From: Geodermatophilus aquaeductus
GTDB taxonomy: Bacteria > Actinomycetota > Actinomycetes > Mycobacteriales > Geodermatophilaceae
Length of the DNA: 64,000 nucleotides
Direction of reading: 5' to 3'
Assembly: GCF_900182545.1 (NCBI RefSeq)
Contig: NZ_FXTJ01000006.1
Location: 1-64,000, forward strand
Part shown: piece by piece, positions 13,798-60,192 of the stretch
Layout of the letters: each line of letters opens with the position of its first letter
Numbering within the stretch: position 1 is the stretch's first letter
Position numbers and translations under genes: made by a program
The notes under the pieces: model-generated
What the model was told of the DNA's origin: nothing
Database searches by the model: none
What the model saw: only the letters and a program-made list of their open reading frames with translations

Positions 13798-13856
13798 AAG
13801 GACCCCGCCGCCCCCCACGCCTCGCAGGCTCGGCGCGGGACCCTGCTGCGGGGCCG
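13798..13856 (+). repeat. dispersed palindromic element, copy A (59 bp)
   Basis: Begins AAGGACCCCGC and ends GCGGGGCCG, which pair as an outer stem. The inner part carries CCTCGCAGGCTCGGCGCGGG. The same design recurs at 24377-24433, 60028-60084 and (minus orientation) 60135-60192. Here it lies between ideR and the S9 peptidase gene and may also act as a terminator. Confidence 0.75.
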
Positions 13857-13964
13857 TTCCAGCACGTCACCCGGCCCGGCGCCCGGTCCACCGCTCCGGC
13901 GGAGGACCGGGCGCTGCTCGTTACGGTGGGCGGCACCGTCCCGTCCCCGTCGCGAGGAGCCCCG

Positions 13965-16058
13965 GTGAGCCAGCCCGACGCCGTGTCCGACAGCCGGCCC
14001 GAGACCGCTCCCGACCCCGATCCGGCGCACCCGTTCGCGCGGCTGGCCGACTTCGTCGCGATCCCGCGGGTGAGCGGTCTCGCGCTGGCCCCCGACGGCC
14101 GGCTCGCCGTCTCGGTGCAGACCCTCGACGCCGACCGGAAGAAGTGGGTCTCGGCGCTGTGGGACGTCGACCCGGAGGGGCAGCGCCCGCCGCGCCGCCT
14201 GACCCGCAGCGCGCCCGGCGAGTCCGCGCCGGCCTTCGCCCCCGACGGCACGCTGCTGTTCGTCTCCGCCCGCCCCGACCCGGGCGCCGGCAAGGACGGC
14301 GACGACCCGAAGGCCGCGCTGTGGGCACTGCCGCCCGGCGGCGGCGAGGCGCGGCCGGTGGTCACCCGCCCCGGCGGCGTGGGCGGGTTCGCCGTGGCCG
14401 CCGACAGCGGCGACGTGGTCGTCGCCGCCCCGGCCATGCCCGGCGCCGCCGACGCCGCCGAGGAGGAGCAGCGCCGGAAGGCCCGCAGTGACGCCGGGGT
14501 GTCGGCGGTCCTGCACGAGGCCTATCCGGTCCGCCACTGGGACGCCGACCTCGGACCCGCGGCGCCGCACCTGTTCTGGGCCGGCGCCCTGCCCGCCGAG
14601 GACCCCGCCGGGGAGCGGCCCGAGCCGGTGCAGCTGCGCGACCTGACGCCCGACGCCGTCCCGCCCACCGGCGCCGGGGAGTCGGCCGTCCTCTCTCCCG
14701 ACGGCCGGCTGCTGCTGCGCGAGGAGTCCGTCCCCGACGGCCCGGCCGGCCGCCGCGAGCGGCTCGTCCTGGTCGAGACGGCGACCGGCGAGAGCCGGGT
14801 GCTGGTCGACGACCCGCTCGCCGAGCTGCACTCCGCCGCCTTCTCCCCCGACGGCACCGCGGTGGTGTGCGTGCGCGAGACGCTCACCACCTACGCCGAG
14901 CCCCCGGACTACACCCTCCTGCTGGTCGACGTGGCCTCCGCCGAGACGCGCGAGCTCACCGCCGGGTTCGACCGCTGGCCCAGCGCCCCGCAGTTCAGCG
15001 CCGAGGGCGACGCCGTGTACTTCCTGGCCGACGAGGACGGCCGGCACGCGCTGTTCCGCGTGGAGCTCTCCGGCGGCGACCCGGTCCGGCTGACCACCGA
15101 CGGCGCCTACAGCGACCTGCAGGTGGCCCGCGACGGCAGCGCCCTGTTCGCCCTGCGCTCGGCCTACGACGAGCCACCGGCGCCGGTGCGCCTGGACCCG
15201 CGCGCGACCGGCCAGAACCCCGCCCCGCTGCCGTCCCCGGGCGCCCTCGGGCCGCTGCCGGGCACGCTGCACGAGGTGCGCGCGACCGCCGCCGACGGCG
15301 CGGAGGTGCAGTCCTGGCTGGTCCTCCCCGAGGGCACCTCCGCCGACGCGCCGGCGCCGCTGCTGCTGTGGATCCACGGCGGGCCGCTGATGAGCTGGAA
15401 CTCCTGGTCGTGGCGCTGGTGCCCGTGGGTGCTGGCGGCCCGCGGCTACGCCGTCCTGCTGCCCAACCCGGCGCTGTCGCAGGGCTTCGGCCAGGACTTC
15501 GTCCGCCGGGGCTGGGGCGAGTGGGGCGGCGCGCCCTACACCGACCTCATGACCGCCGTCGACGCCGCGCTCGAGCGGCCCGACGTCGACGCGGAGCGCA
15601 CCGCGGCGATGGGCGGCTCGTTCGGCGGCTACATGGCCAACTGGGTGGCCACCCAGACCGACCGCTTCCGGGCGATCGTCACGCACGCGAGCCTGTGGGA
15701 CCTCGACTCGTTCGTGGGCACCACCGACGCCGCCTACTACTGGGAGAAGGAGTGGGGCGACCCGCTGGCCACCCCCAAGCGCTACGAGCAGAACTCCCCG
15801 CACCGGTTCGCCGACGCCATCCGCACGCCGATGCTGGTGATCCACGGCGACAAGGACTACCGCGTGCCGATCGGCGAGGCGCTGCGGCTCTGGTACGACC
15901 TGCAGAAGCGCGGCGTCCCCTCGAGGTTCCTGTACTTCCCGGACGAGAACCACTGGGTGCTCACCCCCGGCAACGCGACGGTCTGGTACGAGACGGTGAT
16001 CGCGTTCCTCGCCGAGCACGTCCTCGGGGAGGAGTGGCAGCGGCCCGAACTGGTCTGA
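13965..16058 (+). CDS. S9-family serine peptidase (acylaminoacyl-peptidase / prolyl oligopeptidase type)
   Basis: A 697-residue cytoplasmic peptidase. The first 430 residues form a beta-propeller with repeated SPDG/APDG strands. The last 260 are an alpha/beta hydrolase: IHGGP is the oxyanion region, GGSFGGYM carries the nucleophilic Ser, HGDKDYRVP the acid Asp, and ENHWV the catalytic His. The triad and length match S9C acylaminoacyl peptidases and dipeptidyl-peptidase-like enzymes, which trim peptides. The GTG at 13965 is preceded by GAGGAG, and TACGGT at 13922-13927 is a likely -10 element. It converges on the DUF4192 gene with only 3 bases between the stops. Confidence 0.9.
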   Translation: MSQPDAVSDSRPETAPDPDPAHPFARLADFVAIPRVSGLALAPDGRLAVSVQTLDADRKKWVSALWDVDPEGQRPPRRLTRSAPGESAPAFAPDGTLLFVSARPDPGAGKDGDDPKAALWALPPGGGEARPVVTRPGGVGGFAVAADSGDVVVAAPAMPGAADAAEEEQRRKARSDAGVSAVLHEAYPVRHWDADLGPAAPHLFWAGALPAEDPAGERPEPVQLRDLTPDAVPPTGAGESAVLSPDGRLLLREESVPDGPAGRRERLVLVETATGESRVLVDDPLAELHSAAFSPDGTAVVCVRETLTTYAEPPDYTLLLVDVASAETRELTAGFDRWPSAPQFSAEGDAVYFLADEDGRHALFRVELSGGDPVRLTTDGAYSDLQVARDGSALFALRSAYDEPPAPVRLDPRATGQNPAPLPSPGALGPLPGTLHEVRATAADGAEVQSWLVLPEGTSADAPAPLLLWIHGGPLMSWNSWSWRWCPWVLAARGYAVLLPNPALSQGFGQDFVRRGWGEWGGAPYTDLMTAVDAALERPDVDAERTAAMGGSFGGYMANWVATQTDRFRAIVTHASLWDLDSFVGTTDAAYYWEKEWGDPLATPKRYEQNSPHRFADAIRTPMLVIHGDKDYRVPIGEALRLWYDLQKRGVPSRFLYFPDENHWVLTPGNATVWYETVIAFLAEHVLGEEWQRPELV

Positions 16059-16061
16059 AGC

Positions 16062-17168
16062 TCATCCGGCGGCGTCCTGCTCGAGCGTGCGGCCGATGAG
16101 CGCGCGCAGCGCCGACGGCGGGAGGCAGGCGGCCAGGCCGTCGGCCAGCAGCCGCGGCAGGGTGGCGCCGGGGTCGGCAGCCAGCGCACGGTCCAGCGCC
16201 ACGTTGGCCATCGCGCCGTCGCCGCGCAGCCAGGCGCTGACCGCGAGCAGGGTGGCCGGCGGACCGTCCAGGGGCACCGGCGCGCGGCGGGTGCACTCGG
16301 TCCAGAGCACCTCGGCGGCCGCGGCGTCCTCGCCCAGCGCCAGGGCGAGCGCGCGGTCGCGCACCTCGATCAGGGTCAGCCCCCACAGCACCCGGGCCAC
16401 CCGGGCGTCGGCCAGCCGGGTGGCCGCGGTGGCCGGACCCGGCCGGCAGTCGGCCACGGCCGCGGCGATCGCGGCCCCGGCCTCCGCGGCGACCGCGGCG
16501 GGCCCGAGCGACCGGAGGCGGGCGGCGTGCTCCCGTCCGGCGGACACGCAGGCGGCCGCCATCGCCGCCGCGCCCGGGCCGTCGCCGGACGGCGTGATCC
16601 GCGCGACCAGCGCGTCCCGGCCGGGGGCGAGCACCGCCCCGCCGGCCACGGCCGCGGCGGCCAGCGGGCTGGCCCCGCCGGGCAGCGGCGTCCCCGCGCC
16701 GGGCTCGCAGCACGGGTACGGGCAGTCGTAGTCCCACCAGCGGCCCGACCGCACGAGCAGCGCCTCGCGCACCGGCACGTCCCGGGCGTCGAGCGCGAGC
16801 ACGACCTCGTGCACGAGGTCCCGGTGCGGCAGCTCGGGCGCCGGCGGGAACGGGCCGACGCCGGGCAGCACCGCGAGGCCCGCCGCGTCGGGGGCCATGA
16901 CGTCAGGTGCATCGGAGACGACGGCCAGCAGGACGGCCTCGGGCTCGTCGGTGGCCACCTTGGCGGCGAGCGTGTGCGCCAGCGACCGCGCCGCGGCGGG
17001 CGGGGGCAGGTCGGCACGCACCGTGAGGCCGACGCGGCTGCCGCCGGTTCCGCGGAGGCTGACCAGCACGACGGACTCGGCCGGGTGGAAACCGAGCAGG
17101 AGCGGCAGGGCGGCGGCGACCTCGCCGGTGTCGCCGAGCCGGATGACGGGGATCGGGGAGTCGTCCAC
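16062..17168 (-). CDS. DUF4192 protein
   Basis: A 368-residue protein of the actinobacterial DUF4192 family, of unknown function. The family start is clear: VIRLGDTGEVAAALPLLLGFHPAESVVLVSL. Further on are a Trp/Tyr/Cys cluster (GRWWDYDCPYPCC) at about 140-155 and a long Ala-rich helical C-terminal half. No catalytic motif is evident, and no signal peptide or membrane helix is seen. The GTG start at 17168 gives the N-terminus usual for the family. It stands alone between convergent and divergent neighbours. Confidence 0.8.
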   Translation of the reverse strand: MDDSPIPVIRLGDTGEVAAALPLLLGFHPAESVVLVSLRGTGGSRVGLTVRADLPPPAAARSLAHTLAAKVATDEPEAVLLAVVSDAPDVMAPDAAGLAVLPGVGPFPPAPELPHRDLVHEVVLALDARDVPVREALLVRSGRWWDYDCPYPCCEPGAGTPLPGGASPLAAAAVAGGAVLAPGRDALVARITPSGDGPGAAAMAAACVSAGREHAARLRSLGPAAVAAEAGAAIAAAVADCRPGPATAATRLADARVARVLWGLTLIEVRDRALALALGEDAAAAEVLWTECTRRAPVPLDGPPATLLAVSAWLRGDGAMANVALDRALAADPGATLPRLLADGLAACLPPSALRALIGRTLEQDAAG

Positions 17169-17263
17169 CCGGCCGACCCTGGGGCCGGACGAGGTTCCAT
17201 CACGGCGTCCGCGGCCACCTGTGGACCCGGCGGCTCCTGTGGATGCTCCGGACGGGACTGTCG

Positions 17264-18025
17264 CTAGTCGAGGACGTCGGCCTGGGTGTCGTAGGCCTGC
17301 TCGAGCAGGTCGGCGAACGCCGTCGGGTCCAGCTGCCCGCCGGAGGCGTCGGTGCGGAGCAGGACCACCACCCGCTCACCGTCCTGCACGACCCCGATGA
17401 GCGCCGGCACGGTCACCTGCTGGCCGTCGGGGCCGGTCACCGTCGTCGTGAAGGTCAGACCGGCCGAGCCGTCGCCGAGGTCGGGGACGCCGATCTCCTC
17501 CAGGCTGACGGTCGCGGTGCCGATCTGCGGGGAGCTGACCTGCACCTCCGAGCAGCCGTCGAGCCGGTCGCCGAAGCCGTCGAGCGCGTCCTCGGCGGGG
17601 CCGCCGGAGGCCAGTGCCTGCACCGTGGTCGTCGTCCCGGCGACGGCGACCTGCGCGGCGACGTCGTCGTACTCGTCGAACGACGGCTGGGTGCCCTGCA
17701 CGGCCGCCTGGCACTCCGGCGGCGTGACCTGCAGGTCGGCGGCGGAACCGCCGGCGACCGCCGCCCCCTGCGCGAGCTGCGCCTCGGTCACCGGGGTCAC
17801 CTGCGCGCCGGCCCCGAACGCCTCCGCGGGCAGCAGGCCGGGCGTCAGGTCCGTCCCCGACGACGGCGACCGAGAGGCCGAGGACGACGACTCGGACGAC
17901 GACTCGGACGACGAGGACGCCGGCGAGGCCGTGCCCTCGACGTCGTCGCCACCGCAGGCGGCGAGCAGCGGGACGGCGAGCAGGCCCGCGGCGACGGCGA
18001 GGACGGGGCGACGGCGGATGATCAC
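17264..18025 (-). CDS. secreted lipoprotein of unknown function
   Basis: A 253-residue protein with a lipoprotein signal: basic MIIRRR, a hydrophobic run, and the lipobox LLAAC with Cys at about residue 24. A Ser/Glu-rich low-complexity linker follows (about residues 38-55; the DNA there is a run of GACGACTCG-like repeats). The globular part has two Cys residues (PPECQA and LDGCSEV) that may form a disulfide, and a final beta-rich region. The shape resembles mycobacterial-type sensor or LpqN-like lipoproteins, but I do not recognise a specific family. It probably starts at the first base or bases of its mRNA, as TAGCGT lies 6 bases before the GTG. Confidence 0.75.
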   Translation of the reverse strand: MIIRRRPVLAVAAGLLAVPLLAACGGDDVEGTASPASSSSESSSESSSSASRSPSSGTDLTPGLLPAEAFGAGAQVTPVTEAQLAQGAAVAGGSAADLQVTPPECQAAVQGTQPSFDEYDDVAAQVAVAGTTTTVQALASGGPAEDALDGFGDRLDGCSEVQVSSPQIGTATVSLEEIGVPDLGDGSAGLTFTTTVTGPDGQQVTVPALIGVVQDGERVVVLLRTDASGGQLDPTAFADLLEQAYDTQADVLD

Positions 18026-18031
18026 GCCCGG

Positions 18032-18037
18032 ACGCTA
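18032..18037 (-). promoter_or_regulatory. -10 element of a leaderless gene (lipoprotein)
   Basis: TAGCGT on the minus strand ends 6 bases before the GTG start at 18025. In actinomycetes a TANNNT box about 7 bases before the start codon marks a leaderless transcript. Confidence 0.55.
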
Positions 18038-18078
18038 GCCAGGGCGGGACGAGGGCGCAGGCCGGCCGCCCGATCGGG

Positions 18079-18372
18079 TCAGAGCTCGTACTGGACGGCA
18101 CTCCGGGCGGCCAGGAACGGGCGGACGTGCTCGGCGATGACCTCGAGGTGCACCGGGTCGGTGGCGTAGCGGCGGAAGGTCTCGGCGTCGGGGAAGTCGG
18201 CGACCAGGACGGTGTGCGCGTTGCCCTCGACCAGGCCCGCGTCGGGCGCGACGGTGAACGCCAGCGAGCCGGGCACCTGCTCGGGCAGCCGCCGCAGCGC
18301 CGCGACGGTCTGCGCGCGGCGGGCGTCGTCGGCGGCGTCGGACCAGGTGAAGTGCACGACGTGTCGGATCAC
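18079..18372 (-). CDS. Dabb-family (stress-responsive alpha/beta barrel) protein
   Basis: A 97-residue ferredoxin-fold protein. The pattern IRHVVHFTW at the start, AALRRLPEQVPG in the middle, VLVADFPDAETFRRYATDPVH and EHVRPFL near the end are typical of the Dabb (stress-responsive A/B barrel) family. These act as dimers in varied small-molecule chemistry, and no substrate can be assigned. The GTG at 18372 gives the usual family start. It lies 54 bases from, and divergent to, the GT4 gene. Confidence 0.82.
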   Translation of the reverse strand: MIRHVVHFTWSDAADDARRAQTVAALRRLPEQVPGSLAFTVAPDAGLVEGNAHTVLVADFPDAETFRRYATDPVHLEVIAEHVRPFLAARSAVQYEL

Positions 18373-18412
18373 GCCCGCCACCCTGTCAGGCGGGCGGACC
18401 GGGCGGGGTCGG

Positions 18413-18418
18413 TAGGGT
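18413..18418 (+). promoter_or_regulatory. -10 element of the leaderless GT4 operon
   Basis: TAGGGT ends 7 bases before the ATG at 18426, with no ribosome binding site between. This is the arrangement of a leaderless actinobacterial promoter and would drive the five-gene operon that follows. Confidence 0.55.
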
Positions 18419-18425
18419 CCGGCGC

Positions 18426-19679
18426 ATGGGACGACGGCTGCGGATCGCACTGCTGTCGTACCGGAGCAAGCCGCACGGCGGCGGGCAGGGCGTGTACGTG
18501 CGGGCGCTGTCGCGGGAGCTGACCGCGCTCGGCCACTCCGTCGAGGTGTTCAGCGGCCAGCCCTATCCCGAGCTCGACGACGGCGTCCCGCTCACCCGGG
18601 TGCCCAGCCTCGACCTCTACCGCGAGCCCGATCCGTTCCGCACGCCGCGGCCCTCGGAGTTCCGCGACTGGATCGACGTCGCCGAGTGGGCCGCGATGTG
18701 CACCGCCGGCTTCCCCGAACCGCTCACCTTCACGCTGCGCGCCGCCCGCCTGCTGCTCCCCCGCGCGGCCGAGTTCGACGTCGTGCACGACAACCAGTCC
18801 CTCGGCTACGGGCTGCTGCGGCTGCTGCGCGCCGGCGTCCCGACCGTGGCCACCGTGCACCACCCGGTCGCCATCGACCGGCAGCTGGAGATCGCCGCGG
18901 CACCCACGCTGCGCCGCCGGCTGACCCTGCACCGCTGGTACGGCTTCACCGCCATGCAGGCCCGGGTCGCCCCCCGCCTCGACGCCGTCACCACCGTGTC
19001 GGAGAACTCCCGGCGCGACATCGAGACGCACCTGCGCGTCCCCGCCTCCGGCGTCGAGGTCATCCCGGTGGGCATCGACCCCGGCGTCTTCACGCCGCCG
19101 CCGGCCGGACAGCCGCGCGACGCCGACTCGATCGTCGTCACCACCAGCGCCGACGTCCCGCTCAAGGGCCTGGTGCACCTGCTGGAGGCGGTCGCCAAGC
19201 TGCGCACCGAGCGGCCGGTGCGGCTCACGGTCGTCGGCACCGCGCGGCCCGGTGGGCCGGCGGAGTCGGCGCTGGACCGCCTCGGCCTGCGCGACGCCGT
19301 CCGCTTCACCGGCCCGCTGCCCGAGGCCGACCTGGTGCGGCTGCTGCAGACGGCGACCGTGGCGGCCATCCCGTCGCTGTACGAGGGCTTCTCGCTGCCC
19401 GCGGTCGAGGCGATGGCCTGCGGGACGCCGCTGGTGACCACCGACGCCGGCGCGCTGCCCGAGGTGGTCGGCACCCAGGCCGGCCTGCGGGTGCGGGCCG
19501 GTGACGTCGACGAGCTGACCGCGGCGCTCAAGCTGGTGCTCGAGAAGCCCTCGCTGCAGGAGCAGCTGGGCCGGGCCGGGCGCCGCCGGGTGCTGGCCTC
19601 CTACACGTGGCGCTCGACGGCCGAGCGCACGGCCGCCTGGTACGCCGAGGTGCTGGAACGGAAGGGCGCTGCGTGCTGA
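18426..19679 (+). CDS. GT4-family glycosyltransferase
   Basis: A 417-residue GT-B fold transferase using a nucleotide sugar. The N-terminal acceptor domain has SKPHGGGQGVYVRALSREL. The donor domain carries TVSENSRRDI, IPVGIDPGVF, and the GT4 signature SLYEGFSLPAVEAMACGTPLV with the E-x7-E pair. It is the first gene of a chain with overlapping or nearly overlapping joints: methyltransferase (7-base overlap), alpha/alpha-toroid protein, and two GT2 proteins. The grouping suggests assembly or decoration of a glycolipid or cell-surface glycan. The acceptor and sugar are unknown. Confidence 0.9.
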   Translation: MGRRLRIALLSYRSKPHGGGQGVYVRALSRELTALGHSVEVFSGQPYPELDDGVPLTRVPSLDLYREPDPFRTPRPSEFRDWIDVAEWAAMCTAGFPEPLTFTLRAARLLLPRAAEFDVVHDNQSLGYGLLRLLRAGVPTVATVHHPVAIDRQLEIAAAPTLRRRLTLHRWYGFTAMQARVAPRLDAVTTVSENSRRDIETHLRVPASGVEVIPVGIDPGVFTPPPAGQPRDADSIVVTTSADVPLKGLVHLLEAVAKLRTERPVRLTVVGTARPGGPAESALDRLGLRDAVRFTGPLPEADLVRLLQTATVAAIPSLYEGFSLPAVEAMACGTPLVTTDAGALPEVVGTQAGLRVRAGDVDELTAALKLVLEKPSLQEQLGRAGRRRVLASYTWRSTAERTAAWYAEVLERKGAAC

Positions 19680-20434
19680 CCGTCGACTACGACCTGCTCG
19701 ACCTGCGCCCCGGCATGACCGTGCTGGACCTCGGCTGCGGCGAGGGCCGGCACGCCTTCGAGGCCTACCGCCGCGGCGCGCACGTGGTCGCCGTCGACTG
19801 GGGCGTGTCCGAGGTGGAGACGACGAAGCGGTGGCTGGGCGCGATCGCCGAGGCCGGCGAGGCCCCGGCCGGTGCCCGCTTCGAGGTGCTGCGCGGCGAC
19901 CTGCGGCACCTGCCCTTCCCCGACGCCAGCGTCGACCGGGTCATCGCCTCCGAGGTGCTCGAGCACATCCCCGACGACGTTCCCGCGATGGCCGAGATCG
20001 CGCGGGTGCTCAAGCCCGGCGGGAAGGCCGTCGTCACGGTGCCGCGGTACGGCCCCGAGCGGATCTGCTGGGCGCTGTCGGACGCCTACCACGCCAACGA
20101 GGGCGGGCACATCCGCATCTACCGCGGCGACGTACTGCGCACCCGGTTGTCGGTCGCCGGCCTGGTGCCCGGGCGGCAGCACCACGCCCACGCGCTGCAC
20201 GCGCCGTTCTGGTGGCTCAAGTGCGCCGTCGGGGTGGACCGCGACACCGCCGTCGTCCGCGCCTACCACCGGCTGCTGGTCTGGGACCTGACGAAGCGGC
20301 CGCTGCTCACGCGGGCGGCCGAGAGGGTGCTGGACCCGCTGTTCGGCAAGAGCCTCGTCGTCTACGCGGACAAGCCGGCCGTCCCGCAGGCGGCGGCCGC
20401 CCCGGAGCGGGAGAAGACCGCTGCCGCGCGCTGA
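19673..20434 (+). CDS. class I SAM-dependent methyltransferase
   Basis: A 253-residue methyltransferase with motif I VLDLGCGEGRHAFEA, an acidic strand-2 end (VVAVDWG), motif II (VDRVIASEVLEHIPDD) and motif III (LKPGGKAVVTVP). The EHIPDD and later Trp/Tyr-rich segment (PFWWLKCAVG) fit the UbiE/type 11 group. The GTG start at 19673 overlaps the GT4 stop by 7 bases, indicating coupled translation. The substrate is probably the product of the neighbouring sugar transferases, an inference from context only. Confidence 0.87.
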   Translation: MLTVDYDLLDLRPGMTVLDLGCGEGRHAFEAYRRGAHVVAVDWGVSEVETTKRWLGAIAEAGEAPAGARFEVLRGDLRHLPFPDASVDRVIASEVLEHIPDDVPAMAEIARVLKPGGKAVVTVPRYGPERICWALSDAYHANEGGHIRIYRGDVLRTRLSVAGLVPGRQHHAHALHAPFWWLKCAVGVDRDTAVVRAYHRLLVWDLTKRPLLTRAAERVLDPLFGKSLVVYADKPAVPQAAAAPEREKTAAAR

Positions 20435-20471
20435 GCTGCCCGAGCTGCCCGGCGTCCTCGACGGGGCGGCC

Positions 20472-23322: not shown

Positions 23323-23334
23323 GGGCGCGCCCGT

Positions 23335-23383
23335 TGTCGACCTGGTGCGGTCTCGGCGTCGTCGAGACGATGCCAGGTCGACA
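23335..23383 (+). repeat. nested palindrome between convergent genes
   Basis: Outer arms TGTCGACCTGG and CCAGGTCGACA (11 bp, perfect) enclose inner arms GTCTCG and CGAGAC with a 7-base loop. It lies after the GT2 operon and before the convergent DksA-type gene, so it could end transcription from either side. The nested design matches other palindromes in this window. Confidence 0.7.
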
Positions 23384-23410
23384 TCCGGCGCGCTCGCTCC
23401 CTGGAGGAGC

Positions 23411-23435
23411 GGCGGAAATGGCCATTTCTGCCGCC
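23411..23435 (+). repeat. short AT-centred palindrome, intergenic copy
   Basis: GGCGGAAATGG and CCATTTCTGCC form a near-perfect palindrome around GGCC. Almost the same sequence occurs at the 5' ends of cydDC (36065-36087) and eutC (47512-47537). Its AT-richer core stands out in this GC-rich sequence. Confidence 0.75.
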
Positions 23436-23445
23436 CCGCGCCGGG

Positions 23446-26649
<3,204 letters not shown>

Positions 26650-26652
26650 CGG

Positions 26653-46793: not shown

Positions 46794-46796
46794 GCG

Positions 46797-51285: not shown

Positions 51286-51325
51286 GGGGACTCCTCTGCG
51301 TCGGGTCGGGCGCGCGTGCGCCGTC

Positions 51326-52792: not shown

Positions 52793-52901
52793 GGGCGCCT
52801 CCGGGGTCGGCCCGCCGACGGCGGGAGGGCCAGCCTGGTCCCGTGCCGCGCCGCAGGTCAACGGCCTGCACCAGCGGCAACGGCCCGTTCACACCGCCGA
52901 C

Positions 52902-53783
52902 TCAGGGGATGCCGTGCCAGCGCCCCTTCTCGGCGTTCCCGGCCGGCCTCGACTCGAAGACGTTGCCCTCGGTGGGCGGCGTCCGCTGGTCGTCGGCGAG
53001 GGCGAACACCCGCAGCAGCGGCCCGACCAGGGCGTCGTACACCGCCGGGAACAGCCGGAAGCCGAGGATGACGACCGGGTTGGCGAAGCCGGACTGGACC
53101 AGCCGCCGCGGCCGGTCCAGGCGCGCGACGACCGAGCGGGCCACCCGCTCCGGCGAGTAGATCGGGATCGGCGGGCGGCCCTTGAGGCCGATGTAGCTGC
53201 CGGCCTGCGAGTAGATCGGGGTGTTCACGCCGCCGGGCGCGACCGCCGAGACGTGGATGCCCGGCACGTCGCGGGTCTCCTGCTGCAGCACCCGGATCAG
53301 GCCGAGCTGGCCCCACTTGGCGGTGATGTAGCTGCCCATCAGCGGGGTGGTCACCGAGGCCAGCAGGGAGCTCACGATCACCAGGTGGCCCTCGCCCTGG
53401 CGGCGGAACTGCGGCAGGACCACGCGGGCGAGGTTGGCCGTGCCGTGCAGCGCGGTGTCGACCACCCGCTCGAACACCTCCCTGGGCACCTCCTCGATGC
53501 GCCCGTAGGCGACCACCTGCGCGGCGTGCACGACGACGTCCAGGCTGCCGAAGCGCTGCACGGTCCCCTCGACGGCGGTGCGCAGCGCGTCCTCGTCGAG
53601 CACGTCGGCCGGGCAGACGACGACGTCGGCCGCGCCCTCCGCCCGGACCTCGGCGGCGGTCGCCTCCAGGGCCTCGCGGCCGCGCGCGAGCAGCACGAGG
53701 ACCGCCCCGCGCTGGGCGAACAGGCGGGCGGTGGCGCGGCCGATGCCGCTGGAGGCACCGGTGATGAGCACGGTCTGCGGCAT
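52902..53783 (-). CDS. short-chain dehydrogenase/reductase
   Basis: A 293-residue Rossmann-fold oxidoreductase. It has the cofactor motif TGASSGIGRATA, the NNAG-like HAAQ segment (VVVHAAQVVAYGR), and the active site: Ser in VSSLLASV and Tyr-x3-Lys in SYITAKWG. A C-terminal extension of about 50 residues (FANPVVILGFRLFPAVYDALVGPLLRVFAL) is hydrophobic, like the SDR7-type DHRS7-related group. The substrate is unknown. ATG 53783 follows GAGGAGACC. It is separated by 109 bases from the permease gene start. Confidence 0.87.
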   Translation of the reverse strand: MPQTVLITGASSGIGRATARLFAQRGAVLVLLARGREALEATAAEVRAEGAADVVVCPADVLDEDALRTAVEGTVQRFGSLDVVVHAAQVVAYGRIEEVPREVFERVVDTALHGTANLARVVLPQFRRQGEGHLVIVSSLLASVTTPLMGSYITAKWGQLGLIRVLQQETRDVPGIHVSAVAPGGVNTPIYSQAGSYIGLKGRPPIPIYSPERVARSVVARLDRPRRLVQSGFANPVVILGFRLFPAVYDALVGPLLRVFALADDQRTPPTEGNVFESRPAGNAEKGRWHGIP

Positions 53784-53821
53784 GCGGGGAGGTCTCCTCG
53801 GTCTCGGGGGTCGCTCCCCGG

Positions 53822-54217
53822 CTACCCCGGTCGGTTGCCCGCCATGCGATCGAGGACACCCAGCAGCCAGCCCGGCCCGCGCACGTCGGTCCCCGCGGGC
53901 AGCCGGGCGCGCAGTCCGCGGTCGGCGGTCACCGCGAGCACCGCCCGGCCGGCGGCGGCGAGGGCGGCCGCCTCGGCGGCCAGGGCGTCGTCGCCGCTGC
54001 GAGGGGCGCGCACCAGCCGGACGCCGTCGGGGGCCGGCACGTCGCGCGCCGCACCCTCGACGACGACCACGACCTCGTCGACCTCGGGCACGTCGTCGCC
54101 CTCGAGCGGCGCGGCCAGGCGGTGCAGCAGCCGGGTGGTGGCCCCGGCGCGGTCGCGCCACCAGCCGTCCGGGCGGGCGCCCACGACGTTGGCGGCGTCG
54201 ACGAGCAGGACGGTCAC
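53822..54217 (-). CDS. NYN/PIN-like small protein
   Basis: A 131-residue alpha/beta protein. The first strand VTVLLVDAANVVG with the Asp-Ala-Ala-Asn motif, the acidic VDEVVVVVEGAARDV and the last LAVTADRGLRARL match the NYN/PIN-like ribonuclease fold, in which such Asp residues bind Mg. It may be an RNase or a catalytically weak relative. GTG 54217 follows GGAGGACAC. It stands alone, 83 bases from a divergent membrane protein gene. Confidence 0.75.
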   Translation of the reverse strand: MTVLLVDAANVVGARPDGWWRDRAGATTRLLHRLAAPLEGDDVPEVDEVVVVVEGAARDVPAPDGVRLVRAPRSGDDALAAEAAALAAAGRAVLAVTADRGLRARLPAGTDVRGPGWLLGVLDRMAGNRPG

Positions 54218-54301
54218 GTGTCCTCCTCCCGGGTGACCCGGCCATGGTCGCGCGGCGGGTGGGTACCGCCGTGACCAGCACTCCAGCGACGAGGAGGTCC
54301 C

Positions 54302-54928
54302 ATGGCGAGCAGCGACCGTACCCAGCACGACCCCGGCGTGACCGCGACGACGGAGGGCTCGCACGTCACCCGCGGCCGCGACCGCGACGCCGTCTCGGCC
54401 CAGCGCGCCCGCTTCGGCGGGATCAAGTGGGGAGCCGCGTTCTTCGGGTGGCTGTCGGCCAACGGGCTGGCGGTCCTCCTGGTCGCGCTGGTCTCGGCGG
54501 CCGGGGTCGGCCTCGGGCTGGCCCAGGGCGTCGACACCGTCGGGGAGGCCACGGACCAGGCCGCCGGCATCGGGCTCGGCGGCGCGATCGCCGTGCTGGT
54601 CGTGCTGTTCCTCGCCTACCTCGCCGGCGGCTACGTGGCCGGGCGGATGGCGCGTTTCGACGGCGTCCGGCAGGGCCTGGCGGTCTGGCTGGTCGGCCTG
54701 CTCGTCGTCGTCCTGCTGGCGCTGGCGGGCACCGTGCTCGGCGCGCAGTACAACGTCCTCCGGCAGCTGGACCTGCCGCGCATCCCGGTCGACGAGGGCA
54801 CCGCGACCACCGCCGGGATCATCACGCTGGCCGCGATCCTGGTGGCCACACTGGTCGGCGCCCTGCTCGGCGGCAAGCTCGGCACCCGGTACCACCGCAG
54901 GGTCGACCGCGCCGGCTTCGGCGTCTGA
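54302..54928 (+). CDS. four-helix membrane protein of unknown function
   Basis: A 208-residue integral membrane protein with an acidic/basic N-terminal cytoplasmic segment (about residues 1-40) and about four helices (KWGAAFFGWLSANGLAVLLVAL, IGGAIAVLVVLFLAYLAGGYVAG, GLAVWLVGLLVVVLLALAG, AAILVATLVGALLGGKLG). The Gly-rich GGYVAGRMAR and LLGGKLG motifs resemble the TIGR04086/YrzE-like group. It follows a strong AGGAGG and precedes a perfect hairpin terminator. No partners are evident. Confidence 0.72.
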   Translation: MASSDRTQHDPGVTATTEGSHVTRGRDRDAVSAQRARFGGIKWGAAFFGWLSANGLAVLLVALVSAAGVGLGLAQGVDTVGEATDQAAGIGLGGAIAVLVVLFLAYLAGGYVAGRMARFDGVRQGLAVWLVGLLVVVLLALAGTVLGAQYNVLRQLDLPRIPVDEGTATTAGIITLAAILVATLVGALLGGKLGTRYHRRVDRAGFGV

Positions 54929-54934
54929 GCACCT

Positions 54935-54965
54935 GGTGGGGCCCCGTGGCGGACGGGGCCCCACC
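54935..54965 (+). terminator. perfect hairpin terminator
   Basis: GGTGGGGCCCCGT and ACGGGGCCCCACC, 13 bp, around 5 bases. It begins 7 bases after the stop of the membrane protein gene and ends before the leaderless DUF2277 promoter. Confidence 0.8.
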
Positions 54966-54980
54966 GTCGTCCCCCGGCCC

Positions 54981-54986
54981 TACGCT
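54981..54986 (+). promoter_or_regulatory. -10 element of the leaderless DUF2277 gene
   Basis: TACGCT ends 7 bases before ATG 54994, right after a terminator, so it is very likely a true leaderless promoter. Confidence 0.6.
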
Positions 54987-54993
54987 GCCGCCC

Positions 54994-55263
54994 ATGTGCC
55001 GGAACATCCGCCCGCTGTCGAACTTCGAGCCGCCGGCGACCGAGGACGAGGTCCAGGCCGCGGCGCTGCAGTACGTCCGCAAGATCAGCGGCGCCACGCA
55101 CCCGTCGCGGGCCAACGCCGAGGCCTTCGACCGCGCCGTCGCCGAGGTGGCCGCCGCCTCCGCCCGGCTGCTCGACGCGCTCGTCACGACGGCACCGCCG
55201 AAGGACCGCGCCGTCGAGGCGGAGAAGGCGAAGGCCCGGTCGGCGCTGCGCTTCGCCCGCTGA
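54994..55263 (+). CDS. DUF2277 protein
   Basis: An 89-residue protein with the conserved start CRNIRPLSNFEPPATEDEVQAAALQYVRKISG and the PSRANAEAFDRAV helix of DUF2277. The family is widespread in actinobacteria and proteobacteria; its function is unknown. The single Cys at position 2 of the mature form is conserved. ATG 54994 lacks a ribosome binding site and sits at leaderless distance from TACGCT. Confidence 0.85.
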   Translation: MCRNIRPLSNFEPPATEDEVQAAALQYVRKISGATHPSRANAEAFDRAVAEVAAASARLLDALVTTAPPKDRAVEAEKAKARSALRFAR

Positions 55264-55365
55264 CGGCGGCCCGTTGCGCGCGATCCACTTGCCGTCGGTG
55301 GGCATGGCGGGGGATCCAGCGGGTAGGGGGCGGACTCCCGTCCACTTCCCCCAGGAGAGTCCCCG

Positions 55366-55911
55366 ATGGCCCGCAACACCGTGTCCCGCGCCCTGCACGA
55401 CCTCGGCCTGTCCGCCTGGTTCGGCGGCACGCTCGCCAACGCCGTCGCCCTGAACCCCGCCGCCGGCGAGGCCGGCAAGGACACCGGCAAGGTCGCCAAC
55501 GTCGGCTGGAACCGGTGGACGCCGGTCAACGCCGTGGCGATCGGCGCCCACCTCGTGGGCAGCGTCGGCCAGCTCATCGGCAACCGCGGCCGGGTCGCCC
55601 AGCAGGAGGGCGTGGCGGGCATGTCCGCGCTCAAGACGCTGCTCACCGCCGCCGCGCTCGGCGTCACCGCCTACAGCCGCTCGCTGGGTCAGGTCGTCAA
55701 CGGCACCGGCAGCGGCGCGGCCAACCCCTCGTCGCGGTCGGGCACGAAGCCCACCAAGCGCACCAAGGCCGAGATCGCCGCCGCCCAGGAGCAGCTCGAC
55801 TCGCTGCAGTGGGTCATCCCGGCCCTGACCGGCGCGCTCGTCGTCGTCAGCTCCTACGCCGGTGAGCAGCAGCGGGCCAGCGAGGTCATCAAGGGCGTCT
55901 CCCGTCGCTGA
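55366..55911 (+). CDS. hypothetical membrane-associated protein
   Basis: A 181-residue protein. Amphipathic and hydrophobic segments lie at about 9-28, 50-72, 87-105 and 150-165, with a basic Ser/Lys/Thr-rich cytoplasmic loop (SSRSGTKPTKRTKAEIAAA). I do not recognise a family beyond similarity of style to small actinobacterial membrane proteins. ATG 55366 follows AGGAGAG. The next gene starts 41 bases after its stop on the same strand. Confidence 0.65.
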   Translation: MARNTVSRALHDLGLSAWFGGTLANAVALNPAAGEAGKDTGKVANVGWNRWTPVNAVAIGAHLVGSVGQLIGNRGRVAQQEGVAGMSALKTLLTAAALGVTAYSRSLGQVVNGTGSGAANPSSRSGTKPTKRTKAEIAAAQEQLDSLQWVIPALTGALVVVSSYAGEQQRASEVIKGVSRR

Positions 55912-55951
55912 GCTCCCCGCACCGCCCGCACCGAGCTCCCCTGGGGGAACC

Positions 55952-56449
55952 GTGTCCCGCACCGACACCCGCAGTACGACGTTCACCGGCAACACGGTGT
56001 GCGACCAGCACGCCGGCGCTCCCGGAGGCGCCACCCGGTGTCCCGACTGCACGGACGGGCTCGGGAAGCCGGCACCGGTCGAGCCCGGTTCGTGGCGCGA
56101 CCGCATCCGGCAGAACCCGCCCCTGCACCTGGCGTACCGGGTCGGCGTCTTCGTCGTCGGACTGCTGTTCGTGGTGCTCGGCGTGGCCCTCACGGTGCTG
56201 CCGGGGCCGCTCACCATCCCGCCGGTCCTGGTCGGGCTGTGGGTCTGGTCCACGGAGTTCGGGTGGGCGCGGCGGTTCTTCGCCGCCTTCCGCCGCAAGG
56301 CGGTCGCCGCCTGGCGGCACGCGAAGCAGCACCCGGTCAGCTCGCTGGCGATCACCGTGGGCGGGCTCGCGGCCGCCGGGCTGGCGTTCTGGGCGGTCGG
56401 CCACTTCCAGCTGGTCGACCGCGCGACCGCCGCACTCGGCCTCGGCTGA
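55952..56449 (+). CDS. PGPGW-type transmembrane protein
   Basis: A 165-residue membrane protein. A cytoplasmic N-terminus with two CxxC-like Cys (VCDQHA and RCPDCTDG) precedes the helix YRVGVFVVGLLFVVLGVALTVLPGPLTIPPVLVGLWVWSTEFGWARRFF, which has the PGPL(T) and W residues of the putative transmembrane PGPGW family. A third helix ends the protein. The Cys and His residues near the N-terminus could bind zinc. GTG 55952 follows GGGGGAAC. Function is unknown. Confidence 0.78.
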   Translation: MSRTDTRSTTFTGNTVCDQHAGAPGGATRCPDCTDGLGKPAPVEPGSWRDRIRQNPPLHLAYRVGVFVVGLLFVVLGVALTVLPGPLTIPPVLVGLWVWSTEFGWARRFFAAFRRKAVAAWRHAKQHPVSSLAITVGGLAAAGLAFWAVGHFQLVDRATAALGLG

Positions 56450-56522
56450 GGCCCGGCAGATCGGCACTCCCCCGGCCGCCGTCCGCACCCGCGGACGGCG
56501 GCCGGCGCGCGTCCGGGGCCGG

Positions 56523-57725
56523 GTGCCGGGGAGACTGGCAGCCGTGGCCGGACCGCGTGCGCTGGCCGCGCGGCTGGTGCGGCGCGGGCGCGCCCCCGGT
56601 CTGCGCACCGCCAAGACGGTGCTCGCCGCGGTGGTGGCCTTCCAGATCGCCACCTGGCTGGACACCACCAGCTCGCCGATCCTCGCCCCGCTGACCGCGC
56701 TGCTGGTCGTGCAGCTCACGTTGTACGAGACCCTGGCCACCGGCTGGGAGCGCGTTGCCAGCGTCACCTCCGGCGTCCTCATCGCGGTGCTGTTCGCCTC
56801 GGTCGTCGGGCTCACCTGGTGGAGCCTCGGCCTCGTCGTGGGCATCTCGCTGGTGGTCGGCCGGCTGCTGCGGCTGGGACCGCACCTGGCCGAGGTGCCC
56901 ATCAGCGCGATGCTCGTGCTGGCCGTGGGCGGAGCCGAGAACGCGGCGCTGGGCCGCATCACCGAGACGCTGATCGGCGCCGGCGTCGGCGTCCTGGTGA
57001 ACCTGCTCGTCGCACCGCCGCTCTACGTGCAGCCGGCCAGCGAGGCGATCGCGGAGCTGGCCGAGCGCATGGCCGGCTACTGCGAGGACGTCGCGACCGC
57101 CCTGGGCGGCCCGTGGTCGCGCCGCGTCGCCGACTCCCTGCTGGAGCGCGCCCGCGGCCTGGGGACGGAGGTGGCCCGCGCCGACCGCCGCCTGGCCCGC
57201 ACCGAGGAGAGCGCCCGGCTCAACCCCCGCGGGCGGGTGGCCCGTGTTGCGCAGCCGCGGCTGCGCAACACGCTCAACGCCCTCGAGCGCGTCCACGTCA
57301 GCCTGCGCACCCTCACCCGCGTGCTGCTGGACCGCACCTACTTCCTGCCCGAGGACGACGCCGCCGCGGCGTGGTCGCGGCCGGCACGGGAGGCGCTGGC
57401 CGACGTGCTGCGCGCCGTCGCGAGGACCCTGCACGACGCCGGGGCGGTGGCCGCCGGCACCGCGCCGCCCTCCGACGTCGACGCCGACCGCCTGGGCGAA
57501 CTGCTCGAGCTGCGCGCCCGGCTCGCGGACGCCCTGCTGGTCGATCCCCGCACCGACCCCGCCGGCTGGTCGCAGCACGGCAGCCTGCTCGACGCGGTGG
57601 ACCTGCTGCGCGTGGAGCTGGGCACCGCGCTGCACCCGCCGTCGACGTCGTGGGCGCCGCCGCCGCTGGCCGGGGCGCAGCGGCGCGCACTGCGCCGGGC
57701 GGTGACCCGGCGTCGGCGCCGGTGA
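56523..57725 (+). CDS. FUSC/aromatic acid exporter-like membrane protein
   Basis: A 400-residue protein with six N-terminal membrane helices followed by a cytoplasmic helical domain. The first helix region LRTAKTVLAAVVAFQIATWL and PLTALLVVQLTLYETLATGWERVASVTSG are typical of the FUSC/ArAE family of aromatic-acid or fusaric-acid efflux proteins. The cytoplasmic part (about residues 175-400) is Arg/Ala-rich and predicted to be coiled. GTG 56523 is used; GTG 56543 is possible. It converges on the methionine aminopeptidase gene, whose stop is 6 bases from its own. Confidence 0.8.
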   Translation: MPGRLAAVAGPRALAARLVRRGRAPGLRTAKTVLAAVVAFQIATWLDTTSSPILAPLTALLVVQLTLYETLATGWERVASVTSGVLIAVLFASVVGLTWWSLGLVVGISLVVGRLLRLGPHLAEVPISAMLVLAVGGAENAALGRITETLIGAGVGVLVNLLVAPPLYVQPASEAIAELAERMAGYCEDVATALGGPWSRRVADSLLERARGLGTEVARADRRLARTEESARLNPRGRVARVAQPRLRNTLNALERVHVSLRTLTRVLLDRTYFLPEDDAAAAWSRPAREALADVLRAVARTLHDAGAVAAGTAPPSDVDADRLGELLELRARLADALLVDPRTDPAGWSQHGSLLDAVDLLRVELGTALHPPSTSWAPPPLAGAQRRALRRAVTRRRRR

Positions 57726-57731
57726 GCCGGC

Positions 57732-58514
57732 TCAGGCGGCGGTGAGGACGACCGGCCCGTCGTCGGTGACGGCCACGGTGTGCTCGACGTGCGCGGCCCG
57801 GCGGCCGTCGGCGGTCACCACCGCCCAGCCGTCCTTCTTGTGCCGGTAGCACCCGTCACCGGCCAGGAGCATCGGCTCGATCGCCAGGGTGCTGCCGGCG
57901 TGCAGGCGCACGCGGTCCAGCCCGGCCAGCGGCTGGTTGGGCACGAACGGCGGCTCGTGCATCGCGCGGCCGATGCCGTGCCCGCCGTGGTCGGGCAGGT
58001 GCGCGTAGCCGTACCGGCGGGCGACGGCGTCGACGGCGCGGGCGACGTCGAGCAGCGTCGCGCCCGGCACCGCGGCGGCGATGCCCGCGGCGAGCGCCTC
58101 CTCGGTCGCGGCGACCAGCCGGGCGTCGTCGGCGGAGGCGTGCTCCCCCACCAGCACCGAGAACGCGGCGTCGCCGTTCCATCCGTCGACGACCGCGCCG
58201 CAGTCGACGCTGAGCAGGTCACCGTCCTTGAGCCGCTGTCCGCTCGGCCGGCCGTGCACGACGACCTCGTTGGGCGACAGGCACAGGACGCCGTTGTAGG
58301 CCGTCGGCGCCCACGACGGCTTGTAGCCGAGGAACGACGACGTCGCGCCGGCCTCGTACATCGTCGTCTTGGCGAGGTCGTCGAGCTCGCGCAGCTTGAC
58401 CCCGGGGACCGCCGCCGCCCGCACCGCCGCGAGCGTCTGCGCCACCACGCGACCGGCGGCGCGCATGGCGTCGAGTTCGTCGGTGGTGCGCGGCGGGAGA
58501 ACGGTCAGGTCCAC
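57732..58514 (-). CDS. map: methionine aminopeptidase, type I
   Basis: A 260-residue pita-bread-fold metallopeptidase that removes the initiator Met. All five metal ligands are in recognisable motifs: SVDCGAVVDGWNGDAAFSV (two Asp), GGHGIGRAMHE (His), AIEPMLL (Glu) and HVEHTVAV (Glu). There is no N-terminal zinc-finger extension, so it is the short (type Ia) form. Many actinomycetes have more than one map gene. The start GTG 58514 is preceded at leaderless distance by TACCGT. It is divergent from a small gene at 58597. Confidence 0.92.
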   Translation of the reverse strand: MDLTVLPPRTTDELDAMRAAGRVVAQTLAAVRAAAVPGVKLRELDDLAKTTMYEAGATSSFLGYKPSWAPTAYNGVLCLSPNEVVVHGRPSGQRLKDGDLLSVDCGAVVDGWNGDAAFSVLVGEHASADDARLVAATEEALAAGIAAAVPGATLLDVARAVDAVARRYGYAHLPDHGGHGIGRAMHEPPFVPNQPLAGLDRVRLHAGSTLAIEPMLLAGDGCYRHKKDGWAVVTADGRRAAHVEHTVAVTDDGPVVLTAA

Positions 58515-58521
58515 GCCGTCG

Positions 58522-58527
58522 ACGGTA
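58522..58527 (-). promoter_or_regulatory. -10 element of the leaderless map gene
   Basis: TACCGT (minus strand) lies 7 bases before the GTG at 58514, with no ribosome binding site between. Confidence 0.5.
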
Positions 58528-58596
58528 CGAGACGCCCGGCGCCCCGGGGCGCCGTGGACTGGCCTCGCACAGGCCGGTGGTGCCACGGTGGCCGCC

Positions 58597-58854
58597 ATGG
58601 ACTTCCGCAGGGTCAGGCCCGGCCAGTGGCAGAGGGTGCGTCGCATCGAGATCGCCGAGCCCGGCGGCCTCCCGACGGCGCGCGAGGTGTACGAGGACTG
58701 CCACGTGCTCTTCGCCGACGGCTGGTGCTACCTCGAGGGTCCCGACGGCGCCGTCGACGTCTACCCGGCCGCCCGGGTGCGCATGGCGCACGACCTGCGC
58801 GAGGCCGACCAGCCCGACGAGGGCCCCGCGACGGCGCCCAGTCCGCTGATCTGA
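58597..58854 (+). CDS. small hypothetical protein
   Basis: An 85-residue soluble protein I do not recognise. The start MDFRRVRPGQWQRVRRIEIAE is basic; a beta-hairpin-like middle DCHVLFADGWCYLEGPDGAVDVYPAARV has a Cys and aromatic residues; the end is acidic (EADQPDEGPA). ATG 58597. Its stop TGA falls inside the first unit of a 17-bp tandem repeat. Confidence 0.6.
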   Translation: MDFRRVRPGQWQRVRRIEIAEPGGLPTAREVYEDCHVLFADGWCYLEGPDGAVDVYPAARVRMAHDLREADQPDEGPATAPSPLI

Positions 58855-58878
58855 CTCAGGTGCTGATCTGACTCAGGT
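58845..58878 (+). repeat. 17-bp perfect tandem repeat spanning two convergent stops
   Basis: GCTGATCTGACTCAGGT twice, head to tail, without mismatch. The TGA stop of the plus-strand gene is in unit 1, and the complement TCA stop of the minus-strand gene is in unit 2. The unit holds CTGACTCAG, which carries a stop on both strands. Confidence 0.85.
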
Positions 58879-59100
58879 GCCTGGCTCGCGCCGGACGTCG
58901 GCGGGGTCCGGCGTGCGGAAGACGGTCTCCGGACCGTCGGGCGCGGCCGGCGACCCCTCGGCCTGCTCCGGACGGTCGGGCTCCTCGCCGCCGACGCCGA
59001 AGCCCTCGGCCGGCGGCGGCGCGCCCGTACCGGGGTCCGCGGCGGCGATCTCGTCGTCCGGGCGGTAGCGGTTCGGGGTCATCGGCTCCCACATCGACAT
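58873..59100 (-). CDS. small acidic hypothetical protein
   Basis: A 75-residue protein with low complexity: Pro/Gly/Asp/Glu-rich (EIAAADPGTGAPPPAEGFGVGGEEPDRPEQAEG), probably disordered. ATG 59100 is preceded by GGGGGCG. A second ATG follows two codons later. The stop is in the second unit of a 17-bp tandem repeat. Function is unknown, and the small size keeps confidence moderate. Confidence 0.5.
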   Translation of the reverse strand: MSMWEPMTPNRYRPDDEIAAADPGTGAPPPAEGFGVGGEEPDRPEQAEGSPAAPDGPETVFRTPDPADVRREPGT

Positions 59101-59229
59101 GACACGCCCCCTACCCGGCGACGGGTGGCCCGCGGGTGATCACCGGGTGTCCGGCGGGTATACGACTTCCGAACGGCCGGGATCGTGCGACCCCGGGGGA
59201 AGCCGCGACCCGGAAGGAGCACCACGGAC

Positions 59230-59799
59230 ATGGCGACGACGGGCTCTGGAGAGCGGGCACGACACGGTGTGCGACCCACCCCGGAGCCCCGGGACGGCAG
59301 CGCGGACACCGACCGGCGCCGCGGGGCCGACGGCCGGGACGAGACGCACGCCGAGCGGATCGACCGGGAGCTCATGGAGCTGCTCAACGAGCTGCGGATC
59401 GCGCTGCCGGGCGTGCAGTTCCTCTTCGCGTTCCTGCTGGTCGTGCCGTTCCAGCAGGCGACGGAGCGGGCCACCGAGTTCCAGCGCGACGTCTACTTCG
59501 TGACCCTCGTGGCCGCCGTCGTGGCCACCGCCCTCCTCATCGCACCGGCCGCCCAGCACCGCGCGCTCTTCCGGCAGCACGACAAGGAGGAGCTGCTCCG
59601 GCGCAGCAACCGCCTGGCCTTCCTCGGCCTGTGCGTGCTGGCCGTGGCGATCGTGGCCGCGGTGGTCCTGGTGGTCGACTTCCTCTTCGCCCTCCCCCAG
59701 GCGCTCGTCACCGGCGGCCTCGTCGCGGCGCTGCTCGGCTGGCTGTGGATCGGCAGCCCGGCCCTGCAGCGCGCCCGCGGCTCCCGCACCGGGAACTGA
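59230..59799 (+). CDS. DUF6328-type four-helix membrane protein
   Basis: A 189-residue membrane protein. An acidic/basic N-terminal part with HAERIDRELMELLNELRIALPGVQFLFAFLLVVPFQQ is the conserved start of DUF6328. Four helices follow, the last with a WLWIGSPALQRARG end. ATG 59230 has GGAAGGAGC upstream, so the longer opening at 59185 is unlikely. It converges on the vsr remnant. Function is unknown. Confidence 0.78.
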   Translation: MATTGSGERARHGVRPTPEPRDGSADTDRRRGADGRDETHAERIDRELMELLNELRIALPGVQFLFAFLLVVPFQQATERATEFQRDVYFVTLVAAVVATALLIAPAAQHRALFRQHDKEELLRRSNRLAFLGLCVLAVAIVAAVVLVVDFLFALPQALVTGGLVAALLGWLWIGSPALQRARGSRTGN

Positions 59800-59817
59800 C
59801 GGCGGCCACGGGCCGGG

Positions 59818-60111
59818 TCAGCGGCCGAGGGCGGCGCAGATCGCGTCGACGACGTCGTCGGGGTCCTCGTGCTCCCAGAAGCGCAGCACCCGCCAGCCCA
59901 GCCCGGTGAGGATGGCGTCGGCCCGCCGGTCGCGCGCCGTGTTCCCCGCCAGCTTCGCCGCCCACCACGCCCGGTTGGCCTTCGGCAGGTGCCCGCAGGT
60001 GGGACAGCCGTGCCAGAAACACCCGGTAAGGACCCCGTCCCCCTCACCCCTCGCAGGCTCGGGGCGAGCCTCCGGACGGGGCCGACCAGCGACGTCCACC
60101 CGGTAGCGCAC
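59818..60111 (-). pseudogene. vsr: vsr (very short patch repair endonuclease) remnant rebuilt by a palindromic element
   Basis: 97 codons remain open. The C-terminal half is typical Vsr: GCFWHGCPTCGHLPKANRAWWAAKL and LGWRVLRFWEHEDPDD. The N-terminal part before it should carry a metal-binding/strand region such as DIVF...VAVFVDGCFWHGCP. Instead residues 10-28 (RPRPEAR to GDGVL) come from a 57-bp dispersed element (copy C). Before that, RYRVDVAG matches the usual Vsr YRVDVAP, but further upstream a second, inverted element (copy D, 60135-60192) replaces the normal helix. The catalytic Asp region is lost, so it is probably inactive as a Vsr nuclease. It could still be translated. Confidence 0.78.
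60028..60084 (+). repeat. dispersed palindromic element, copy C, inside the vsr remnant
   Basis: 57 bp, AAGGACCCCGTCC to GGACGGGGCCG. Nearly the same as copy B (24377-24433) and read in the same frame on the minus strand as 19 codons. Confidence 0.85.
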
Positions 60112-60134
60112 ACCGCGGGCGTGCAGCCGAGGCC

Positions 60135-60192
60135 GGCCACCGTGCAGGGGCCCGCCGCGAGCGTGCGAGCGGTGGGGGACACGGTGGTCCTT
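60135..60192 (-). repeat. dispersed palindromic element, copy D, inverted relative to copy C
   Basis: On the minus strand it runs AAGGACCACCGTG to CACGGTGGCC, with the central TCGCACGCTCGCGGCGGG. It is more diverged than copies A-C. With copy C it brackets 50 bases of vsr-derived sequence. Confidence 0.7.

Follow-up and report, generated by a model that had tools for sequence, protein, structure and literature searches.

The window considered here comprises the first 64,000 nucleotides of contig NZ_FXTJ01000006.1 of Geodermatophilus aquaeductus (assembly GCF_900182545.1), and the element in question is a short palindrome of which it holds four copies, A to D. These belong to a family found throughout the genome, and in this family the hairpin stems covary, the copies abut stop codons, orthologous gene ends occur in filled and empty states, and some copies lie nested in the apical loops of others. 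The explanation that we favour on balance, with rather modest confidence, is that these are mobile hairpins specific to the Geodermatophilaceae, comparable to repetitive extragenic palindromic (REP) sequences or miniature inverted-repeat transposable elements (MITEs), which lie against stop codons and serve as 3′-end elements, likeliest as bidirectional terminators or mRNA end-hairpins.

In order to define the family, the G. aquaeductus genome was first searched with a sequence pattern, which gave 48 matches (some of them overlapping) as against one for the reversed pattern; 36 full-length copies from this search, A, B and C included, were placed in a single alignment as the seed of a covariance model, truncated, partly overlapping and unrelated matches being excluded. 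At E ≤ 0.01 this model finds 90 copies, D now included, in the 5.43-Mb genome, scoring there having covered 150 candidates only; 84 of the 90 score at least 54.1 bits, the remaining six at most 43.3. Among the 84, the common lengths are 58 (36 copies) and 56 (25), a length of 57 being rare (5). Copies A to D score 70.6–75.9 bits and lie where a preliminary description of the window had placed them, so that its family of four stands, enlarged to 90, except that the core of the model ends one base short of the ends originally given for A, B and C, making B and C 56 rather than 57 bp long. A rescan with the model found no copies in six 20-kb control stretches (L186–L191). Membership of an Rfam family was rejected, as Rfam 15 gave no match at the gathering threshold in the window and none at E ≤ 1 within 59900–60300.

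Each unit opens with AAGGA, followed by an outer stem of about eight pairs, the 5′ side of which has a conserved bulged A, and by a C-rich stretch, while its 3′ part consists of the inner stem, a loop near CTCGCANGCTCG, an asymmetric bulge near ACCCT and an outer arm ending in GGCC. Over 90 distinct rows, 96.1% of stem cells are paired, compared with 80.7% after shuffling; 12 of the 15 pairs have changed on both sides (8.0 in shuffles), and doubly changed cells number 177 as against 40.8, which bears out the earlier proposal that the family is palindromic. Sliding the partner strand drops the pairing to 37–57%. A count of further pair types shows no excess (23 against 20.9, 87 of 500 shuffles being as high), and it must be remembered that fitting the alignment to the model in itself favours pairing. 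The folding of single copies is weak (z-scores of −0.27, −0.31, −1.07 and −2.96 for A, B, C and D respectively), and the case for the hairpin is carried by the covariation. A tail of the form GTTCC..TCACC was considered as a part of every copy and rejected, both halves being present in a minority (12 of 90 copies in this genome, 12 of 235 in relatives). At 13856–13872 of the window, and in other minority copies, there is a tail like GTTCCAGCACGTCACC, whose CGTCA might base-pair with the TGACG found at the stop codon, and this suggests a longer subfamily.

A distinctive property of the family is its placement. No fewer than 75 of the 90 copies start between −3 and +3 nt from the stop codon of an upstream gene, where random placement would put 0.34% of them, or 0.30 copies. 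Among the copies in relatives, 152 of 235 lie within 6 nt of a stop and 93 lie exactly at +2, the loci having been chosen for holding a copy. Stop codon usage (counted on genes above a score filter) is shifted at the genes concerned, with TGA 43, TAG 18 and TAA 6 as against TGA 331, TAG 64 and TAA 7 for other genes (p 0.0015), in part because the junction itself makes the stop (T/AAGG, TG/AAGG or TAG/AAGG, the stroke marking the junction). As to the flanking genes, 33 copies lie between convergent pairs, 38 between tandem pairs running in the direction of the element and only 3 between divergent pairs (of the rest, 6 are oriented against a tandem pair of neighbours, 9 overlap with predicted genes and 1 is at a contig end), while 74 background intergenic regions of at least 60 nt comprise 5 convergent, 45 tandem and 24 divergent cases.

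Gene ends that lack the element are also informative. At 44 element-free convergent ends, the hairpin starts 0–9 nt from the stop in 30 of 43 strong cases, compared with 12 of 40 hairpins in one mononucleotide shuffle of such ends. C-rich 4-mers (CCCG, CCCC) stand out behind element-free stops; the idea that the Shine–Dalgarno-like AAGG might be a general mark of gene ends was rejected, as it falls outside the 12 top 4-mers there in every class. At the 3′ end of one orthologue of a gene of this genome (L081:862-2374, minus strand), TGAGGAAGG precedes a large unrelated hairpin that stands in place of the element, as though one hairpin had been exchanged for another downstream of AAGG.

The family is confined to the Geodermatophilaceae as far as the searches extend. 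An exact pattern, AAGGACCN{13,20}CTCGCNNGCTCG, has matches in 100 of 112 genomes of the family, with 0–240 matches per genome and none for its control; carriers named among the matches listed are Geodermatophilus, Blastococcus and Modestobacter. In a draw across the class, only 6 of 394 genomes gave matches, these being G. aquaeductus itself, another of the Geodermatophilaceae and four genomes elsewhere, each with a single match unlike the element, and since the reversed control matched 8 genomes the level outside the family is that of chance. With the covariance model, for which counts per genome saturate near 136, all 25 genomes drawn from the genus (G. aquaeductus included) were positive, as against none of 16 from the other families of the order. 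Three genomes (G041, G057 and G069) have no exact-pattern copy within genera where others have 50–100. One contig labelled as Bacillus sp. AZ43 (L161, UNVERIFIED_ORG) carries the element together with an 87%-identical relative of a protein of this genome, and looks like a mislabelled Geodermatophilaceae record.

Evidence for turnover comes from a comparison of orthologous gene ends, 176 out of 194 being usable in that the 3′ end was visible on both sides. The element was present in both genomes at 14 of these, only in G. aquaeductus at 11, only in the relative at 21 and in neither at 130 (p 1.3e-5), the loci having been sampled around elements, so that presence is overestimated, and some of the relatives scored as empty in fact carrying the element in inverted or decayed form (L217, L077). 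Where both orthologues have the element, its arms often differ. At the site of copy A, inspected by eye and unscored in 26 orthologues, there are clear elements, decayed ones and empty sites.

Copies also insert into one another. A pattern consisting of the host loop CTCG, 0–9 nt and a new AAGGACC (this single orientation) has 123 matches in 23 of the 112 genomes, as against 5 for the reversed control, and in 114 of the 123 the spacer has exactly three nucleotides, usually GAG (38) or TAG (32). The right junction is variable, and in most of 30 loci inspected by eye the host loop is partly lost. Nesting differs between genera, with 108 nested against 2380 exact-pattern copies in one (g1) and 0 against 1531 in another (g25; p 4e-24), a rough ratio in that numerator and denominator come from different patterns. 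Nested copies are also present in a further genus (g19). Partial elements without the AAGGA end also occur in tandem arrays, repeating about every 48 bp (L103:5212-5359, L214:1501-1750). The predominance of one loop junction suggests a specific mobilising activity. Mobilisation by a REP-associated tyrosine transposase (RAYT) of the Y1 type was rejected, since no Y1 transposase was found in any of the 112 family genomes by a search that was positive in 5 of 14 control genomes; nor was a parent insertion sequence with matching terminal repeats, of the kind expected for a MITE, found, Y1 being the sole type searched for.

These observations can be combined as follows. The RNA hairpin would end or protect the transcript, in both directions, and the hairpins that occupy the same slot at element-free ends presumably share this role, while copies would move by some activity supplied in trans other than a Y1 transposase. 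As a ribosome bound at the stop would cover the first bases of the element, the hairpin would form only after release or where RNA polymerase is ahead. The GC-rich hairpin characteristic of rho-independent terminators is present.

Several points weigh against a 3′-end role of this kind. There is no T-tract (a mean of 1.19 T in 10 nt, with four or more T at 1 of 90 copies), and in E. coli the ribosome is described as repressing a terminator several bp behind a stop codon almost completely (PMC4824070). At convergent ends the mean best energy is −38.6 kcal/mol with the element and −44.1 without it, and the best hairpin falls within 0–9 nt at 26 of 58 convergent ends that have the element. Not adjacent to an upstream stop are 15 of the 90 copies in this genome and 83 of the 235 in relatives; 27 of the latter are clustered with another copy, a stop on the opposite strand lies no more than 25 nt beyond the far side of 18, and 38 show neither feature. 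The 12 family genomes that lack an exact-pattern copy imply that the element is dispensable. As to mobility, no mobilising enzyme was identified in a search limited to Y1, and comparisons of filled and empty sites by eye gave no clear target-site duplication.

A more specific proposal concerning movement, which we regard as possible but doubtful, is that a non-Y1 mechanism has two precise targets, namely the stop codon of a gene (often re-made from the first bases of the element) and the apical loop of the element's own copies, nearly always 3 nt behind CTCG. If this were true, the hairpin would be mobile, would recognise the ends of genes, perhaps via RNA or the ribosome, and would carry the transcript end along with it.

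Two other explanations of the placement must be weighed. The first, which we would rate as rather unlikely, is that the hairpin, lying beside the stop codon, acts as a REP-like translational brake, slowing the terminating ribosome and lowering expression with no ending of the transcript. REPs less than 16 nt from a stop are reported to lower translation in E. coli (PMC12306157), a distance within which the 75 stop-abutting copies fall with ease, and the terminating ribosome would lie over the conserved AAGGA and the bulged A; against this, the hairpins in the same slot at element-free ends suggest a general role at 3′ ends, and the enrichment between convergent genes fits terminators rather than a translational brake. 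The second, to which we would similarly give only a small share of the probability, is that the hairpin is purely selfish and has no role for the host, copies being found at stops simply because landing there does least harm or because stops are a preferred target. The filled and empty sites, the nested and tandem copies, the wide range in copy number and the genomes lacking exact-pattern copies would all be natural for such an element. Least harm alone, however, should give a scatter across intergenic DNA rather than positions within 3 nt of a stop, and the double changes keep the stems paired.

Among known systems, REPs and bacterial interspersed mosaic elements (BIMEs) are characterised by a bulge, by clustering and by a link to the RAYT (Y1) transposase (PF01797), and REPs carry a 5′ tetranucleotide of the GTAG/GGAG type. 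The conserved 5′ end of the present element is AAGGA, which in nested copies is mostly preceded by GAG or TAG. According to PMC12306157, REPs are short, dispersed, extragenic, transcribed palindromes of 14–40 nt in E. coli, some of them close behind stops (about 11%, or 446 of 4,072, lie within 15 nt of one). The present element is likewise short, repeated, palindromic and extragenic, with a common motif and many copies, but it differs from the REPs and BIMEs of E. coli and Pseudomonas in its length of 56–58 nt, in the lack of Y1 from the 112 family genomes and in its concentration within 3 nt of stops. The SPRITE element of Streptococcus pneumoniae is a dispersed repeat resembling a rho-independent terminator, and SPRITE, RUP and BOX cluster and insert into one another (PMC10969869). 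Judged by that description, the present family is similar as a terminator-like dispersed hairpin with clustering and self-insertion, and differs in that its nesting has one prevailing junction and its T-tract is absent. Hairpins of the REP and SPRITE types are known kinds; what distinguishes this family from them is how closely it abuts stops, together with its prevailing loop junction and its lack of Y1. No paper describing the element was found in the open-licence literature, as judged by titles and the starts of abstracts, and in the available part of a paper on the Geodermatophilaceae (PMC9686282) the word “palindromic” is used for CRISPR only.

The family is of interest because it marks gene ends with nearly single-base precision across the Geodermatophilaceae, and its filled and empty orthologous gene ends constitute a natural experiment on the interplay of stop codon, hairpin and RNA polymerase. 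Hairpins abutting stops bear on whether RNA polymerase outruns the ribosome in GC-rich actinobacteria, and copy B illustrates a route by which an element may become protein at a stop/start overlap. Table 1 collects the features of the window that are relevant here.

Table 1 The four copies of the element in the window, and the genes associated with them.
Feature	Position	Strand	Remarks
Copy A	13798..13855 (58 bp)	+	Covariance model; intergenic, 2 nt past a TGA stop
DtxR-like iron-dependent repressor gene	13088..13795	+	Upstream of A; ends in TGA
Copy B	24377..24432 (56 bp)	+	Inverted relative to both flanking genes; open frame in N-terminus of downstream gene
YibE/F-like gene	24448..25623	-	TGA overlaps start codon of next gene (ATGA)
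Class I methyltransferase gene	23765..24451	-	Methyltransf_24, residues 60-188; B is residues 7-25 of 228
Copy C	60028..60083 (56 bp)	+	Read in frame (minus strand) within vsr relic
Copy D	60135..60192 (58 bp)	-	Inverted relative to C, 51 bp apart; also in open frame of vsr relic
vsr relic open reading frame	59818..60111, open upstream to 60324	-	Second half alone matches Vsr

Copy B lies at the junction of the YibE/F-like and methyltransferase genes. The gene finder missed the reading frames of B, C and D, and for B this could be corrected using orthologues. The YibE/F protein is matched in 25 of 26 genomes of the genus, of which 23 gave a usable panel (G020 and G022 being left out), and in all 23 the junction is an ATGA or GTGA overlap, which implies that the methyltransferase starts at the overlap and that B is indeed part of the protein; an intergenic location for B was accordingly rejected, the predicted start codon being wrong, while a start internal to the gene, downstream of the element, might still be envisaged. 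The element is present at this site in 10 of the 23 orthologues and is in frame in all ten, despite five length classes (225–246 aa), two of them being nested when inspected by eye. The other 13 proteins are shorter (205–219 aa), though one (G013) may retain a remnant. The site is empty in the close relative G001 and filled in G000 and G017. Copies that land on a stop/start overlap (ATGA) would survive only if the downstream frame is kept, and would then be translated; B would be one such survivor.

The situation of C and D is rather different, as both lie in the relic of a vsr gene. It matches positions 63–119 of TIGR00632 with 62.3 bits, below the cutoff of 97.85, its first half being unmatched, and PDB entry 1vsr with E 1.3e-7; annotated Vsr relatives are found on plasmids. 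Copy C, read as RPRPEARPEPARGEGDGVL, occupies the position of GRPDFVV in E. coli Vsr, a segment that we take to include the catalytic Asp51, and the gene is for this reason probably dead. Copy D is open in the frame of C and is read in the opposite direction, as KDHRVPHRSHARGGPLHGGR. In G017 and G001, inspection by eye of 430 nt (130–560 upstream of the orthologous neighbour gene) revealed neither an element nor any vsr-like sequence.

The preliminary description had seen in B and C a parallel to the Rickettsia palindromic elements (RPEs), with selection for the open frame. Its observation on the frame was correct: both copies are open, with the first base of the element at codon position 2. 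Insertion into a gene likewise holds for B, given its ten in-frame orthologues, but not for C, the presence of which in a relic reduces the argument from two copies in the same frame to one tolerated insertion and one relic, i.e. to B alone. The open frame was rejected as a sign of selection, since 66 of 84 copies are free of stops in all six frames and, after shuffling, about 71 of 84 copies are open in any one of the three plus-strand frames to which this comparison was applied, as expected for a GC-rich composition, of which the open frames would be a by-product; lengths, moreover, are multiples of three in only 8 of 84 copies. RPEs are described as about 150 bp long and nearly half of them as lying in open reading frames (PMC10969869), and copy B resembles them in being a palindrome open in frame inside a gene, while the family differs in its 56–58 bp, its placement mostly at stops and the rarity of coding copies. 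That the family as a whole is RPE-like, inserting into genes and being selected to remain open and in frame, is therefore highly improbable and largely refuted by the genome-wide counts, even allowing for the in-frame orthologues of B and the open frames of C and D.

A two-sided coding test flags 2 of the 90 copies (C3:208576 and C4:215525) and leaves B, C and D unflagged; being blind to these three, it does not give the number of other coding copies. In five further copies a frame that looks coding continues beyond the element; these might be N-terminal or have been given a wrong start.
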